Made by a program: the position numbers and the translations under genes. A DNA stretch of 64,000 nt from an uncultured Pelagibacteraceae bacterium (lineage in GTDB: Bacteria; Pseudomonadota; Alphaproteobacteria; Pelagibacterales; Pelagibacteraceae). Within the stretch, counting starts at the first letter, position 1; each line of letters opens with the position of its first letter. Below the pieces are notes generated by a model. That model was not told where the DNA came from. It saw only the letters and a list, made by a program, of their open reading frames with translations, and searched no databases. Where the stretch lies: contig CACBQD010000009.1 of the NCBI GenBank assembly GCA_902541285.1, positions 1 to 64,000 of the forward strand, in the 5' to 3' direction. Of this stretch, positions 14,236 through 19,974 are shown in pieces.

Positions 14236-14526
14236 TTGTCTACAAAAAAGTCAGAAATTATTAATAAACTTGTAGAAAATTATCCTAACTTTATAAGAAA
14301 AGATTTAAAGAGATTTATAGAAATAATTATATCAGAAATAAAATATTCTTTAAAACGACATGAAAGAGTTGAGTTAAGAGATATTTTCTCATTGGAGCCA
14401 AGACTTCAAAAAAAGAGAGTTGCAAGAAATCCACGTACTAATGAAAAGGTAATTGTAAAAGAAAAGTACACCATAATTTTCAAATCTTCAAAACTATGGT
14501 TAGAAAAGATGAATTATGAAAAATAA
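14236..14526 (+). CDS. ihfB: Integration host factor beta-like DNA-binding protein
   Basis: A 96-aa HU/IHF family architectural DNA-bending protein. The N-terminal helical dimerisation part is followed by the beta-arm region carrying RNPRTNEKV (about 70-78), the IHF form of the family signature, with Pro at the arm tip for DNA intercalation. It follows rpsA by 4 nt, the usual place of ihfB, and uses a TTG start. No ihfA partner is in the window: in E. coli it sits after pheT, but here lepA takes that place. Confidence 0.9.
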   Translation: MSTKKSEIINKLVENYPNFIRKDLKRFIEIIISEIKYSLKRHERVELRDIFSLEPRLQKKRVARNPRTNEKVIVKEKYTIIFKSSKLWLEKMNYEK

Positions 14527-15187
14527 AATTTTCATAGCTTGCGATACAACGAGTACAAAAAGAGTAAAAAATATAATCAAAAACACACGTACAGACAAAT
14601 TAAAAGTGGGCTATAAATTTGGCTTAGAATTTTTAAACTCTAAAAATGGACGAAAATTTATAAAAAAACTAAAAAAACAAATAACATTTGGTGACTTTAA
14701 AATTTCTGACATACCAAATACATGTACCGCAACAATTAAATCTGTTAAAGATTTAAATTTTAATTATATAACAATCCATATTAATTGTGGGCTAGAGGCT
14801 TTAAAATCTGCAAAAAAGGTTGCGGGAAAGACTAAATTAATAGGCGTTACAATTCTTACATCTCTAAACAATAAATCTTTAAAAGAAATAGGATTTAGGG
14901 ATAATGTAAATAAAATAGTACTAAAGCAAGCCATATTAGCAAGAAAAGCAAATTTGGATGCTATAGTATGTAGTGCTCGAGAAGCAAAAATAGTTAAAAA
15001 AGTTTTTAAAAAAGAAATAATAACTCCTGGAATAAGATTTAGTTCAAGAATAAATGATCAAAAAAGAACTTTAGATCCTAGGCAAGCTTATAAAAATGGT
15101 GCAGATTGGTTAGTAATAGGAAGAGACATTACCAAAGGTAATATCAAAAAAAATGTTCAAACATTAATTGATCAATTAAACAAATGA
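14516..15187 (+). CDS. pyrF: Orotidine 5'-phosphate decarboxylase
   Basis: Last step of UMP synthesis. The 223-aa TIM-barrel protein has the substrate lysine in KVGYKF and the catalytic D-x-K-x-x-D array in GDFKISDIPNT (about 63-73). The phosphate-binding TPGIRFSS and a C-terminal GADWLVIGRDI also match the family. It overlaps ihfB by 11 nt and trpF by 4 nt, so all are likely in one transcript. Divergent in detail but with the catalytic set intact. Confidence 0.93.
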   Translation: MKNKIFIACDTTSTKRVKNIIKNTRTDKLKVGYKFGLEFLNSKNGRKFIKKLKKQITFGDFKISDIPNTCTATIKSVKDLNFNYITIHINCGLEALKSAKKVAGKTKLIGVTILTSLNNKSLKEIGFRDNVNKIVLKQAILARKANLDAIVCSAREAKIVKKVFKKEIITPGIRFSSRINDQKRTLDPRQAYKNGADWLVIGRDITKGNIKKNVQTLIDQLNK

Positions 15188-15801
15188 TTAAAGGTTTAAA
15201 AATTTGTGGGATCTCAGATCCTAAAACTTTAAACTATATTTTAAATCATAGACACAAACCTTTTATGATAGGTTTCATCACAAATTATGAAAAAAGTAGA
15301 AGATTTATTGAATATGAAAAATTACAACGTTTAATTAATATTGATAAAAAGGGGGTAAGCTTTGTCTCTGTTCTAGTGAGACCTAACGATGTAATTTTAG
15401 AAAAGATTAAAGATTTAAATTTTGACTATTATCAACTTTACGATGTAGATCCTAAAAGAACGGAAGAAATTAAATCAAAATATAAAATAAAAATAATAAC
15501 TGCTCTTACAATTTCTGAAGAAGCTGACGTAATTAAATATAAAAACTATCAAGAAATATCTGATATAATTTTATTTGACTCAAAAGGATACCATAAATCT
15601 GAAAGTTTTGATCATAAGCTGCTAGAAAATGTACCAAATGAATTAAATAAAATGATTGCAGGCAACATACAAATAGAAGATATTTCAAGTTTTAAAAATA
15701 AAAACTTTATTATTGATCTTAGTGGTGCATTAGAAGATGAAAATGGAAATAAAGATAAAAGTAAAATTGATAAATTATTAAACTTATCTGCAAAAATATG
15801 A
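15184..15801 (+). CDS. trpF: Phosphoribosylanthranilate isomerase, divergent
   Basis: By position and fold this is TrpF (Trp step 3). The 205-aa barrel keeps KICGI with the catalytic Cys (C8) and an Asp in ILFDSKG (D132), which is the candidate acid/base. Other signatures have drifted. The SPR motif reads SRR (38-40). The GGTG-type phosphate loop before FDW is YHKSESFDH (136-144). The usual AGG phosphate contact is AGN (159-161), and DVSSGVE is DLSGALE. It overlaps pyrF and trpB by 4 nt each. The fold call is good; full enzymatic competence is less certain because the phosphate-binding glycines are missing. Confidence 0.82.
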   Translation: MIKGLKICGISDPKTLNYILNHRHKPFMIGFITNYEKSRRFIEYEKLQRLINIDKKGVSFVSVLVRPNDVILEKIKDLNFDYYQLYDVDPKRTEEIKSKYKIKIITALTISEEADVIKYKNYQEISDIILFDSKGYHKSESFDHKLLENVPNELNKMIAGNIQIEDISSFKNKNFIIDLSGALEDENGNKDKSKIDKLLNLSAKI

Positions 15802-17042
15802 AACTTAAAAAAGGAATTCCTGTGATAGACCAAGGTAATAAACTCGGGTTCTGGGGAGGTAAATTTGGGGGAAACTTTGTTCCTGAAACATTAAAAAAAC
15901 CTATCGAAGATTTAGAAATACTATTTAATAAACTTAAAAAAGATAAACAATTTATACAAGAAAGAGATAAATATTTTAAAAATTGGATTGGCGTTCCTAC
16001 TCGATTTATTAAATTAGAGAATTTAACAAAACATGTTGGTGGAGCACAAATTTGGTCTAAAGTTGTTTCAGATGCAAATGGTGGGGCACACAAGATCTAC
16101 AATGCAACAGTCCATTGTTTACTTGCTAAACGCTCGGGTAAAAAGGTTATTTGTGGAGACACAGGTGCAGGTTATGCGGGTAAAATGTTAAGTATGGCTG
16201 CAAAAAAGTTTGGTCTTAAATGTAAAATATTCATGGGTGCAAAAGATATTGTAAGACAACAACCAAATGTAAAAGCGATGAAAAAAAATGGTGCCGAGGT
16301 AGTTCCAGTTTATTCAGGAAGTCAAACTCTTGTGGATGCTGTTTCAGAGTGTATGAGGTTCTGGGTTGCTAATTGTGATACAAGTGCCATGTGTGTGGGT
16401 AGTACGGTTGGTCCTGCTGTATTTGTACGTATATGTGGTTGGAGCACTAGTCAAATTTCGAGAGAACTTAAAGTTCAATTAATTGATGAGTTTGGATCAA
16501 TTCCAAAGAAACTTAAACTTTACAATTGTGTAGGTGGTGGAAGTTCGAGTTTTGGGTTTTGGAATGAGTTTATGGATTATGATAAAAAACAGTGTGAATT
16601 TATTGGTGTAGAAGCTGGGGGACCTGCAAAAAGTAAAAAACATGCAGCACCCTTAACTTATGGTTCGAAGATTGGAATTCTACATGGTGCAGCCCAATAT
16701 GTTAATCAAAACTCAGATGGACAAATAGTAGAGACCGAGTCTATTTCGGCAGGTTTGGATTATCCTGGAATTTCACCGTTACATTGTTTTTTAAAAGACA
16801 CAAAGCGAGCCAGATATACTGCAGCAAGTGATGAACAAGCATTGAATGCCTACAAAATTGTTACAAGATTTGAAAAATTAAGACCATCTCTTGAACCCAG
16901 CCACGCATTCGCTGTTGCAATATCTGAATCTAAAAAATTTAGCAAAGATACTATCGTGGTAGTTAATAGTTGTGGCGATGCATACAAGGACCGGGGAATT
17001 TTAGAAAAAAGATTAGGAAAAAAATATGTTAAATCCAATTAG
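15798..17042 (+). CDS. trpB: Tryptophan synthase beta chain, strongly divergent active site
   Basis: PLP enzyme expected to condense indole and serine. The 414-aa length, the trpF-trpB-trpA context and long family stretches (ISAGLDYPGISPLH, CVGGGSSSFG, LEPSHAFA) fix the family. The PLP lysine is K99 in GGAHK. Several near-invariant positions differ: E-T-G-A-G-Q-H-G is D-T-G-A-G-Y-A-G (121-128), so the catalytic Glu is Asp and the Gln-His pair is lost. REDLNHT before the lysine is replaced by KVVSDANG. The VVGPHPYP segment reads TVGPAVFV. The C-terminal NLSGRGDKD reads NSCGDAYKD, so the Ser near the PLP nitrogen is Cys. Family certain; catalytic equivalence open. Confidence 0.88.
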   Translation: MKLKKGIPVIDQGNKLGFWGGKFGGNFVPETLKKPIEDLEILFNKLKKDKQFIQERDKYFKNWIGVPTRFIKLENLTKHVGGAQIWSKVVSDANGGAHKIYNATVHCLLAKRSGKKVICGDTGAGYAGKMLSMAAKKFGLKCKIFMGAKDIVRQQPNVKAMKKNGAEVVPVYSGSQTLVDAVSECMRFWVANCDTSAMCVGSTVGPAVFVRICGWSTSQISRELKVQLIDEFGSIPKKLKLYNCVGGGSSSFGFWNEFMDYDKKQCEFIGVEAGGPAKSKKHAAPLTYGSKIGILHGAAQYVNQNSDGQIVETESISAGLDYPGISPLHCFLKDTKRARYTAASDEQALNAYKIVTRFEKLRPSLEPSHAFAVAISESKKFSKDTIVVVNSCGDAYKDRGILEKRLGKKYVKSN

Positions 17043-17826
17043 TGCAGCATTTGTGAAAGCAAAACAAGAAAATAGACCTGCTCTACTAACTTATACTGTT
17101 GCTGGTGATAGCTCGAAAAAACAATCTTTAAATATATTAAAATCTATTTCTAAAAATGCTGATATTTTAGAAGTAGGAATCCCCCACAACACCCCCGTGG
17201 CAGATGGAAGTCAAATTCAAACAAGCGCCTATAGATCAATTAAAAATGGAATTAAAGTAAATGATATTTTCAAAATTGTAAAAGACTTCAAAAAGTTTGA
17301 TTATAATAAACCTGTTATCTTAATGGGATATTACAATATGATCTTTCAATATGGTGAAAATAAATTCTTAAATAAATGTAAGTTATCTGGAGTTAATGGA
17401 TTGATAGTTGTAGATCTACCTTGGCCAGAAAATAGGGGTTTCGCAAAAAAATGTAAAAAAAAATCTATTTATTTTATTCAGCTTTTATCACCAACAACTA
17501 CAAAAATTAGGCTTAAAAAAATTATAAAAGACTCTCATCCGATGAGTTATTTCATTTCAATGTTAAGCACAACTGGTGGTAAACTAAAAGTATCACCGAG
17601 AGAGATAATAAAAAATTACATCAAAATAAAAAAAATCAATCCAAAAAAAAATGTAGTAATTGGCTTTGGAATCACAGAAAAAACAATTGATAAACTAAAA
17701 TCTGCAGACGGATTAGTTGTTGGAAGTGCTATTTGTAAGGAAATTAGCAGGAGTTTAAAACATAGACAAAATCCTGTCACAAATGTAAGTAACCTAGTAA
17801 AAAAATTAAAAAATAAAATTCTATGA
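17026..17826 (+). CDS. trpA: Tryptophan synthase alpha chain
   Basis: Cleaves indole-3-glycerol phosphate and passes indole to TrpB. The 266-aa barrel keeps both catalytic acids, E49 (ILEVGIP) and D60 (PVADG), in exactly the E. coli numbering. It also keeps LMGYYN and VVDLPW. The residue equal to E. coli Asp56, which contacts the beta subunit and helps couple the two sites, is Thr here (HNTPVADG). Loop 6 reads STTGGK in place of a VTG-type motif. It overlaps trpB by 17 nt and accD by 4 nt. The changes at the inter-subunit face go along with the divergent TrpB. Confidence 0.92.
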   Translation: MLNPISAAFVKAKQENRPALLTYTVAGDSSKKQSLNILKSISKNADILEVGIPHNTPVADGSQIQTSAYRSIKNGIKVNDIFKIVKDFKKFDYNKPVILMGYYNMIFQYGENKFLNKCKLSGVNGLIVVDLPWPENRGFAKKCKKKSIYFIQLLSPTTTKIRLKKIIKDSHPMSYFISMLSTTGGKLKVSPREIIKNYIKIKKINPKKNVVIGFGITEKTIDKLKSADGLVVGSAICKEISRSLKHRQNPVTNVSNLVKKLKNKIL

Positions 17827-18755
17827 ACTGGATAACAAAAGCTCTAAGTTTTGGTGAAAAAATTAAAAAAGTTTTAAAAAAAAGACCATCAAAAGAAGAT
17901 ATTGAAAATTCAGATTGGACTAGTTGTTGCAAAGGCCCAATTTTAAAAAAAGATCTTGAAGATAATCTATGGGTTTGCAACTCGTGTGGAAAACACCACA
18001 GAATTAATTGCCGACAAAGATTTGATATTATTTTTGGAAGAAATACCTATGAAATACTTGATACACCAATTCCTGCAGAAGATCCTCTTGAATGGGTAGA
18101 CACCAAATCTTATAAAGATAGACTAAAATCTGCAAGAAAGAAAACTGATCAAAATTCAGCTGTGATGATTGCTAAAGGTAGAATAAATGGAATCGAGGTA
18201 ACAGCAGGAGCTATAAATTTTGAGTTTATTGGTGGATCTGTTGGTGCTGCTGAAGGTGAAGCAATTATTTATGGTGTTCAACACGCTATTGACAATCAAA
18301 CACCATTTGTTTTCTTTCCTTGTGGTGGAGGACAAAGAATGTTTGAGTCTCCTATTGCGCTTGCAAATATGACAAGAACTACTCTTGCAATTAATGAACT
18401 TAAAAAAAATAATCTTCCTTATTTAGTTTGTTTTACAGATCCAACAGCTGGTGGAATTACTGCATCTTTTGCAATGTTAGGCGACATTCATTTTGCCGAA
18501 CCTGGTTGTTTAATAGCTTTTGCAGGAAAAAGAGTTATACAAGCTACAGTGAAGGAGGAGTTGAGTCCTGATTTTCAAACATCTGAATTTGTTGAAAAAC
18601 ATGGATTTGTTGACAGAATTGTAGAGCGAAAAGATTTAAAAACTGAAATAAGCTTAATATTATCAATATTGTTAAAAAAAGATAACGCGGTAAATGAAAA
18701 ACAAATAGATGAAACTTCAGACAATATTGAACCGCTTGCAAAAGCTGCATCCTAA
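17823..18755 (+). CDS. accD: Acetyl-CoA carboxylase carboxyltransferase subunit beta
   Basis: Transfers the carboxyl group from biotin to acetyl-CoA, first step of fatty acid synthesis. The 310-aa protein has an N-terminal zinc ribbon and a crotonase-fold domain (FEFIGGSVGAAEGEAI; FPCGGGQRMFE; DPTAGGITASFAMLGD). The ribbon is unusual: instead of two CxxC pairs there is an adjacent C35-C36 and a normal C52-x2-C55. Context trpA-accD-folC is standard for alphaproteobacteria. It overlaps trpA by 4 nt and folC by 47 nt. Confidence 0.95.
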   Translation: MNWITKALSFGEKIKKVLKKRPSKEDIENSDWTSCCKGPILKKDLEDNLWVCNSCGKHHRINCRQRFDIIFGRNTYEILDTPIPAEDPLEWVDTKSYKDRLKSARKKTDQNSAVMIAKGRINGIEVTAGAINFEFIGGSVGAAEGEAIIYGVQHAIDNQTPFVFFPCGGGQRMFESPIALANMTRTTLAINELKKNNLPYLVCFTDPTAGGITASFAMLGDIHFAEPGCLIAFAGKRVIQATVKEELSPDFQTSEFVEKHGFVDRIVERKDLKTEISLILSILLKKDNAVNEKQIDETSDNIEPLAKAAS

Positions 18756-19974
18756 AGAAATCGATCTAAGTCTAGATAGAGTTAAAAACCTTTGTAATAA
18801 ATTAGGCAATCCACAAAAGGATTTAAAATATATATCTGTAGTTGGTACAAATGGTAAGTATTCAACAATTCAAGGAGTAAGATCAATATTAAAAAATGCC
18901 AATATAAACTGCAATATATATACTAGCCCACATATTCAAAAAATTAATGAGAGATTTGTCTTTAACGACAAAGAAATATCTGATGATAAATTATCAGATT
19001 TATTAGAGGAAGTTGAAAATGTTAATAATGGCGAACAAATTACTTATTTCGAAATATTAACTGCAGCATATTTTCATCACGCAAGTAAATTCAAAGACAA
19101 AATAAATATTATAGAAAGTGGTCTATTTCATAGATTTGATGCAACTAATATTATTGATACCAATTTATCAAGTATTGTTACTTCAATAGGTTTAGATCAT
19201 TTAGATTGGTTGCCAAAAAACGAGCAAAGTATTGAAAAAATTATTTATGAAAAAACCTCATCCCTACTAAATTCCACTATTGTAGTTAGCAAACAAAGCT
19301 CGGATGAAACTTTGAACTTAATAAAAAAAACAATTAATAATAATCAATCAAAAAAAATCATTTATAAAGATGATTTCAATTATTCATTAATTGAGAACGG
19401 TTTTATTTATTATGAAGATGAATATGGTGGTTTAAAATTACCAAAACCAAATCTTTTAGGTAATTTTCAAATTGATAATTGTGCGACTGCTATTGCTACT
19501 GTAAGAAATTTACAACTGGGAGTAAAAGATGAAAATGTTAAAGAAGGTATTACCAAGATAAAGAGTATTGCAAGACTTCAAGAAATTAAATCTGGAAAGC
19601 TTAAAAATATTTGTAAGAATAATAGATTATATTTAGACGGCTCACATAATCCTTTAGGAGCAAAAGTTTTGAATGAATATTTAAATACTCTTGATTGTAA
19701 AAAGCATTTAATTCTTGGAATGATGTCTAATAAAGATCACGAGGAATATCTGAGCAAATTTAATAATATATCTTCCATAACAACAATAGATATTCCTAAT
19801 CAACCGAATGCTATAAAAGGAATGGATTTAAAGGAAAAATTAAATAAATATCACAATGTTAATTACAAAAAATCTATTGAAGAAGCTCTTGACTCTCTAA
19901 ATCTAGAGAAAGATGATTTGATAATGATAACTGGGTCTTTGTATCTTGCTGGAGAGCTACTTAATTTGAACTAA
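18709..19974 (+). CDS. folC: Dihydrofolate synthase / folylpolyglutamate synthase
   Basis: ATP-dependent ligase that adds glutamate to dihydropteroate and folates. The 421-aa protein has an N-terminal LHPKEIDLSLDRV region, the P-loop-like VVGTNGKYSTIQ (about 44-55; the usual GTNGKGS has Tyr for Gly), TSPHIQKINERF, an HLDWL motif and DGSHNPLGA. The start was chosen because the first residues resemble other FolC N-termini; it creates a 47-nt overlap with accD in a different frame. It ends the long plus-strand block and overlaps the trxA stop by 4 nt on the opposite strand. Confidence 0.93.
   Translation: MKLQTILNRLQKLHPKEIDLSLDRVKNLCNKLGNPQKDLKYISVVGTNGKYSTIQGVRSILKNANINCNIYTSPHIQKINERFVFNDKEISDDKLSDLLEEVENVNNGEQITYFEILTAAYFHHASKFKDKINIIESGLFHRFDATNIIDTNLSSIVTSIGLDHLDWLPKNEQSIEKIIYEKTSSLLNSTIVVSKQSSDETLNLIKKTINNNQSKKIIYKDDFNYSLIENGFIYYEDEYGGLKLPKPNLLGNFQIDNCATAIATVRNLQLGVKDENVKEGITKIKSIARLQEIKSGKLKNICKNNRLYLDGSHNPLGAKVLNEYLNTLDCKKHLILGMMSNKDHEEYLSKFNNISSITTIDIPNQPNAIKGMDLKEKLNKYHNVNYKKSIEEALDSLNLEKDDLIMITGSLYLAGELLNLN

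Follow-up and report, generated by a model that had tools for sequence, protein, structure and literature searches.

Tryptophan synthase serves as a standard model of substrate channelling and allostery. In its beta subunit, TrpB, Glu109 binds the indole N-H through its carboxylate (PMC9512447), and in Mycobacterium tuberculosis Asp56 in loop L2 of the alpha subunit, TrpA, contacts a lysine of the COMM domain (PMC6608616). Among the closest described systems to the locus studied here is the Pelagibacter/Sargasso Sea trpB1 cluster, known since 2008, when Kagan 2008 placed the single trpB copy of HTCC1062 inside it and concluded that the distinct Pelagibacter trpB must be functional; the excerpts of that paper give a tree and the gene order, and residues, alpha-beta coupling and swapped cassettes are not in them (PMC2395257). 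We analyzed a trpFBA block of the same lineage and with the gene order given there for HTCC1062 (PMC2395257). It lies in a stretch of 64,000 nucleotides (the window; contig CACBQD010000009.1 of an uncultured Pelagibacteraceae bacterium). The SAR11 genome to which the window belongs comprises 32 contigs with 1.16 Mb in total and is 89% complete. We put at roughly 90% the probability that this block encodes a working phosphoribosylanthranilate (PRA) isomerase together with the SAR11 tryptophan synthase, in a variant rewired across the whole clade. The residue pattern of the SAR11 TrpB, its reach, its active site and its alpha-beta contact were not found in the open-licence papers searched, and the pattern and its reach appear to be new.

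Residue numbers are those of E. coli unless given as positions of the window TrpB. When aligned to E. coli, with identities of 39% for TrpB (153 of 391 aligned residues), 27% for TrpA (70/259) and 20% for TrpF (39/192), the window TrpB retains H86, K87, R141, N145, D305 and E350, with the pyridoxal phosphate (PLP) lysine present in a GAHK motif (H98-K99). It carries the substitutions E109D, Q114Y, H115A, R148A, K167V and S178V, and further along N236S, S377C, R379D and D381Y. At the level of motifs, VVSDAN is found for REDLLH and TVGPAVFV for AAGPHPYP, together with DTGAGYAG and NSCGDAYKD. The window TrpA retains E49, D60 and T183, and is changed at two positions, D56T and G181S. The residues that an earlier note on this DNA had named, and its coordinates of the block, are as described there.

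To place the substitutions, 94 TrpBs from outside SAR11 served as controls: E. coli, 26 loci from a search of the class and 27 from a search of the phylum (the closest matches in each case), and 40 hand-picked loci (35 from the phylum, 5 from the class). All belong to the Pseudomonadota; other phyla were compared by residue only in two PDB alignments. Together with 135 SAR11 TrpBs they make up 229 aligned sequences, from which those with less than 75% query coverage and the duplicates L003, L005, L171-L175, L249 and L291-L306 were left out. Glu109, His115, Lys167, Asn236, Arg379 and Asp381 are present in 94/94 controls; none of these six residues remains in the window TrpB. Position 114 of the controls is Gln (86/94) or Met (8/94), and position 148 is Arg (89/94) or Lys (5/94). 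Two of the substitutions are not departures, because they are common in controls: Val178 occurs in 25 of the 26 class controls (sequences below 350 amino acids excluded), and Cys377 occurs in 49/94, so that Ser377 to Cys was discarded as a candidate. His86, Lys87, Asn145 and Glu350 are invariant in 229/229 TrpBs.

The pattern is not a peculiarity of the window genome, an idea that was rejected. Asp109, Val167 and Ser236 occur together in 122/135 SAR11 TrpBs and in 0/94 of the controls; each of the first two is found in 122/135 SAR11 sequences, where all 94 controls have Glu and Lys, respectively. Near-copies weigh heavily in the SAR11 counts, since many of the 135 sequences come from the best 80 of 573 loci. 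The possibility that such substitutions are common elsewhere, which would have removed the novelty proposed in the earlier note, was not borne out, as Asp109 or Val167 was seen in none of the 94. A search of the order with the window TrpB matched 275 of 298 genomes at 1e-20; judged by E-value, 263 of these have the window type (<1e-100, with residues checked in a part of them) and 12 have another TrpB. No match outside the order exceeded 45% identity among the matches listed for 289 genomes of the class and 397 of the phylum (about the best 150 matches each for order, class and phylum). On these sequence comparisons, the residue pattern is the rule in SAR11 and clade-wide.

The 94 controls share 110 TrpB positions with an invariance of at least 97%. 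Of these, 32 are lost in the 122 D109-type proteins (less than 3% keep the residue), which, on the alignment, is more than chance. The TrpA counterpart is 5 of 31 such positions, including D56 and G181. The lysine contacted by alpha Asp56 in M. tuberculosis is read here as Lys167 of Salmonella. Residues beta167 and alpha56 were concordant in 219/219 pairs, from which the 10 of the 94 controls with no TrpA in the fetched stretch are excluded: Lys is paired with Asp or Glu (n = 93), and Val or Leu with Thr, Cys or Ala (n = 126), and no mixed pair was observed. The comparison thus supports the idea that the alpha and beta subunits changed together, a correlation that is striking but phylogenetically thin. 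The SAR11 TrpAs keep Glu49 and Thr183 in 137/137 cases, and position 60 is Asp or Glu in all of them.

In the TrpB tree the D109 type forms one clade (66 rows were used for each tree, out of 229 TrpB and 221 TrpA sequences) on a long stem (1.32 changes per column by a quick method), which makes the place of this clade among the TrpBs unsure. The AlphaFold2 model of the window TrpB (pLDDT 93.7) has the TrpB fold, matching P. furiosus TrpB (6cut) with Z 64.9 and a root-mean-square deviation (rmsd) of 1.0 over 384 aligned residues. With the canonical TrpB1/TrpA of Salmonella, E. coli and P. furiosus, the SAR11 proteins share the fold, the PLP lysine, His86, Arg141, Asp305, the operon with trpA and the catalytic residues of TrpA, and differ from them by D109, Y114, A115, A148, V167, S236, D379 and Y381 in TrpB and by T56 and S181 in TrpA. 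Of the traits of TrpB1, Glu109 is Asp and Lys167 is Val. Conservation of the lysine is confined to TrpB1 and does not extend to TrpB2 (PMC1854888, as K162 of P. furiosus; the equivalence is drawn here). Unlike TrpB2, which has Arg at that place, the SAR11 TrpB keeps Asp305 (D300; PMC1854888); it also adjoins trpA, and scores 92.8 bits against the TrpB2 model TIGR01415, far below the cut-off of 518.85. Positions 114, 167 and 377 are those of the Salmonella TrpB mutants beta-K167T, Q114A, Q114N and S377A (6duc, 6dzo, 2j9y, 6xe3); those were made singly, whereas in SAR11 the positions are changed together, to other residues, and are fixed in nature, Cys377 being common anyway. The SAR11 TrpBs form a clade of their own, which has diverged strongly and has TrpB1 as its nearest type. 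Since Glu109 is Asp, we regard them as diverged proteins with a TrpB1-like function and do not file them as canonical members.

The own genome contains four PALP-family matches, of which only one is TrpB-like; the other three, labelled by eye, are CysK-like, dehydratase-like and threonine-synthase-like. A canonical trpB elsewhere, which the earlier note had named as support for a repurposed block, was therefore looked for and rejected: the PALP-family search of this 89% complete genome found neither a second nor a canonical trpB. The trpC gene is present here and in 39/40 hand-picked SAR11 genomes. One genome of the collection (G066) we identify as HTCC1062, because its DmdA shows no difference over 369 residues to 3tfh, a structure from that strain. 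Its TrpB has the motifs DTGAGYAG, GGGSSAYG and NSCGDAKKD, which are of the window type. At 1e-20 it has a single match to the window TrpB, the gene of its trpFBA block, and that gene is also its sole TIGR01415 match, at 89.7 bits versus 518.85, so no TrpB2 was found in it. HTCC1062 has been grown in AMS1 supplemented with pyruvate, glycine, methionine and vitamins, and tryptophan is not among the supplements named (PMC13198564). Because trpC is kept, no other TrpB was found, and HTCC1062 with the same TrpB grows without listed tryptophan, the SAR11 type of TrpB very probably makes the tryptophan of the cell.

How might such an enzyme work? PLP on Lys99 would form the aminoacrylate from serine, as usual, and Asp121, in place of Glu109, would bind the indole N-H with its own carboxylate, which an Asp can in principle still do. 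The shorter arm of Asp would perhaps be offset by the neighbouring changes A108G, Q114Y and H115A, and Arg153-Asp321 (R141-D305), retained in 122/122 D109-type TrpBs, could still close the beta site. The closed-state contact Gln114-Arg148 and the ionic contact alpha56-beta167 would be gone in both partners, and for this reason the alpha-beta signal would have to use other contacts and the allostery would be altered. A search for E109D kinetics in the open-licence literature found none. It is conceivable, albeit doubtful, that the SAR11 enzyme, having neither the ionic alpha-beta coupling nor the Gln114-Arg148 contact, operates as a bienzyme under different regulation, perhaps with loose coupling, in which a shorter Asp activates indole, and that whole trpBA cassettes were repeatedly exchanged at this one locus for others with other solutions (e.g., Leu141/Asn305 in G050). 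A large natural clade from abundant ocean bacteria, in which signal-linked residues are replaced in both subunits, would allow one to ask how much of the textbook mechanism is essential. TrpB biocatalysis, in which new substrates become accessible by changing this Glu (E105 in T. maritima; PMC12727527), could also draw on the SAR11 TrpBs as starting enzymes that are still unexplored.

Several observations weigh against a working tryptophan synthase of a rewired kind. The window TrpB falls below the TIGR00263 trpB equivalog cut-off (368.7 vs 392.45 bits), and of 30 SAR11 genomes picked by hand, most of them unusual, 25 match this model and 6 exceed the cut-off. The TrpA tree contains only two changes of pair type, each in both partners, and since it holds one or two independent pairs a sign test on beta167/alpha56 cannot reach significance. 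The growth report names supplements and does not give the full medium (PMC13198564), and no assay of any enzyme of the SAR11 TrpB clade was found in the open-licence literature. Finally, part of the TrpB divergence may be general drift, because SAR11 proteins have diverged generally: rpsA and trpF show identity ratios to the class controls of 0.68. This last point leads to an explanation that we hold to be unlikely, namely that there is nothing special in the block: a streamlined lineage would have diverged fast and almost neutrally, and the relaxation of these residues would mean nothing for function. Divergence from the class controls is indeed seen in each of the seven genes of the region (ratios 0.62-0.85). 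TrpB has the lowest ratio, 0.62 (42.4% identity to class controls vs 67.8% among controls), the other six lying at 0.68-0.85; these identities rest on 5 loci for rpsA, 10 for pyrF, 8 for trpF and 12 for each other gene. Between the window and HTCC1062, in turn, TrpB has the highest identity of the seven (76.8%; others 50.9-70.7%), and hence most of the change seems to fall on the stem and to have been kept from then on. The replacements are fixed, with D109, V167 and S236 in 122/122 (near-copies included), and the alpha and beta changes match, which also argues against neutrality. In five close trpB pairs the nonsynonymous rate (dN) was 0.012-0.051 and the synonymous rate (dS) 0.40-1.46, with dN/dS of 0.02-0.04; by this measure trpB is under purifying selection. 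The changes would have arisen on the stem that leads to the clade, with such selection maintaining them afterwards.

The earlier note had also considered that the block was turned to another indole/serine chemistry. This could be, for example, a beta-substitution that uses a different nucleophile, in a cell that imports its tryptophan. The change of 32 of 110 otherwise invariant TrpB positions would suit such a proposal, and replacing Glu105 (equivalent to 109) by Gly, Ala or Ser lets bacterial TrpBs use phenols (PMC12727527). We consider it very improbable, since trpC is kept, Glu49 and Thr183 are preserved in all 137 SAR11 TrpAs compared, with Asp or Glu at 60, relatives carry a different TrpBA in the same position, and the growth of HTCC1062 with this TrpB and no listed tryptophan (PMC13198564), with no second TrpB found, speaks against it. 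Even less probable is a pseudoenzyme that would only activate TrpA to release indole, like the eudicot TSB-like proteins, with which the SAR11 TrpB shares a natural change at the indole-activating Glu (PMC12727527). In eudicot TSB the change of this Glu to Ala abolishes tryptophan synthesis, and in TSB-like the reverse change restores a low level of it (PMC12727527). A carboxylate remains at position 109 in SAR11, however, unlike in TSB-like, which has Glu at 305 and, at 109, Ala or, in Solanaceae, Ser or Pro (PMC12727527); furthermore, Asp305 and Arg141 are maintained in all 122 D109-type proteins, and no second TrpB was found in the window genome or in HTCC1062.

The coordinates of the block and its neighbours are listed in the table below. 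The trpF and trpB genes overlap by 4 bases, and trpB and trpA by 17 bases. The accD gene occupies the same position in HTCC1062 and in genome G012; the name folC is assigned from synteny, and not from a family scan. The window TrpA exceeds the TIGR00262 cut-off and has Glu49 and Asp60.

Features of the trpFBA block and neighbouring genes (positions in the window)
Feature	Positions	Strand	Description	Evidence
pyrF	14516..15187	+	conserved upstream neighbour	PF00215 105.4 bits, cut-off 27
trpF	15184..15801	+	phosphoribosylanthranilate isomerase, SAR11 type	PF00697 74.5 bits, cut-off 22.7
trpB	15798..17042	+	D109-type tryptophan synthase beta subunit	TIGR00263 368.7 bits, cut-off 392.45
PLP lysine codon	16092..16094	+	TrpB K99 (K87 in E. 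coli numbering)	alignment to E. coli
TrpB D121 codon	16158..16160	+	replaces Glu109 (indole-activating carboxylate)	alignment to E. coli
TrpB V179 codon	16332..16334	+	replaces Lys167 (partner of alpha Asp56)	alignment to E. coli
trpA	17026..17826	+	alpha subunit, Thr56 and Ser181	TIGR00262 203.8 bits, cut-off 102.35
TrpA T56 codon	17191..17193	+	replaces Asp56	alignment to E. coli, pair table
accD	17823..18755	+	conserved downstream neighbour	TIGR00515 277.7 bits, below cut-off 317.45
folC	18709..19974		downstream of accD	

The window TrpF retains the Cys and the Asp, has KGYHKS at the GGTG stretch and AGN for AGG; GGTG and AGG are the phosphate-loop glycine motifs of PRA isomerase (PRAI). 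It exceeds the PF00697 cut-off and misses the NCBIfam PRAI equivalog cut-offs. Its AlphaFold2 model (pLDDT 94.2) has the PRAI fold: the best PDB match is the PRAI 1nsj (Z 24.7, rmsd 2.0, 197 aligned residues), and the first row that is not a PRAI follows at Z 17.4. The earlier note had proposed that all three proteins co-evolved to an altered tryptophan synthase. This stands for alpha and beta, on the concordant pairs and the two changes on the tree, and had to be given up for TrpF, whose type does not follow that of TrpBA. Five loci of the f2 group (L030-L034) combine a D109-type TrpB with a TrpF of the GG type, and in four of eight other SAR11 loci with an EQHK-type TrpB (G012-type) a Lys167 TrpB is paired with a KGYxKS TrpF. 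Beside the other D109-type TrpBs, 95 TrpFs have the KGYxKS form and 15 neither form. Most SAR11 f1 loci seen have a TrpF lacking the GGTG/AGG glycines, and the f2 loci L030-L034 retain the GG stretch.

In 23 of the 298 genomes of the order no TrpB match was found. Of 20 tested further (e.g., G112, G125, G182), which are up to 96% complete, 19 have trpC and 18 lack a trpA match. The two trpA matches (G186, G294) both sit at a contig end, and an assembly gap is therefore likely; alternatively, these genomes may have lost the trp block.

Other trpBA cassettes and TrpB types were observed within SAR11. In G012 a different trpBA lies between SAR11 trpF and accD (L249, G012:C1:1079500-1092000); its rpsA, pyrF, trpF, accD and folC are 58-73% identical to those of the window, versus 36-38% for TrpB and 30-32% for TrpA. 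At the G012-type loci L149-L155, TrpB reads ESGAGQH, Lys167 is paired with alpha Glu56, and position 305 is Gln or Thr instead of Asp. As different trpBA pairs lie between the same neighbours, both cassettes most likely do the same work. The G039 TrpB is canonical. The G050 TrpB (L147, L305; G050:C1:127879-129051) has Leu141 and Asn305, so that the closed-state salt bridge Arg141-Asp305 is lost. A third SAR11 TrpBA, on a very long branch, is found in G017, G115, G220 and G306 (L163-L166, L306), with ETGASM, Lys141, Leu167 with alpha Thr56, and GSGES for GRGDK; the accD and folC of G115 are also unlike those of the window (45% and 30%). No TrpB1 was found beside TrpB2 in G020 and G024. TrpB2, above the TIGR01415 cut-off, occurs in 8 of 41 hand-picked SAR11 genomes, at L307-L312, G314:C4:38165-39415 and G045:C8:29583-30830.

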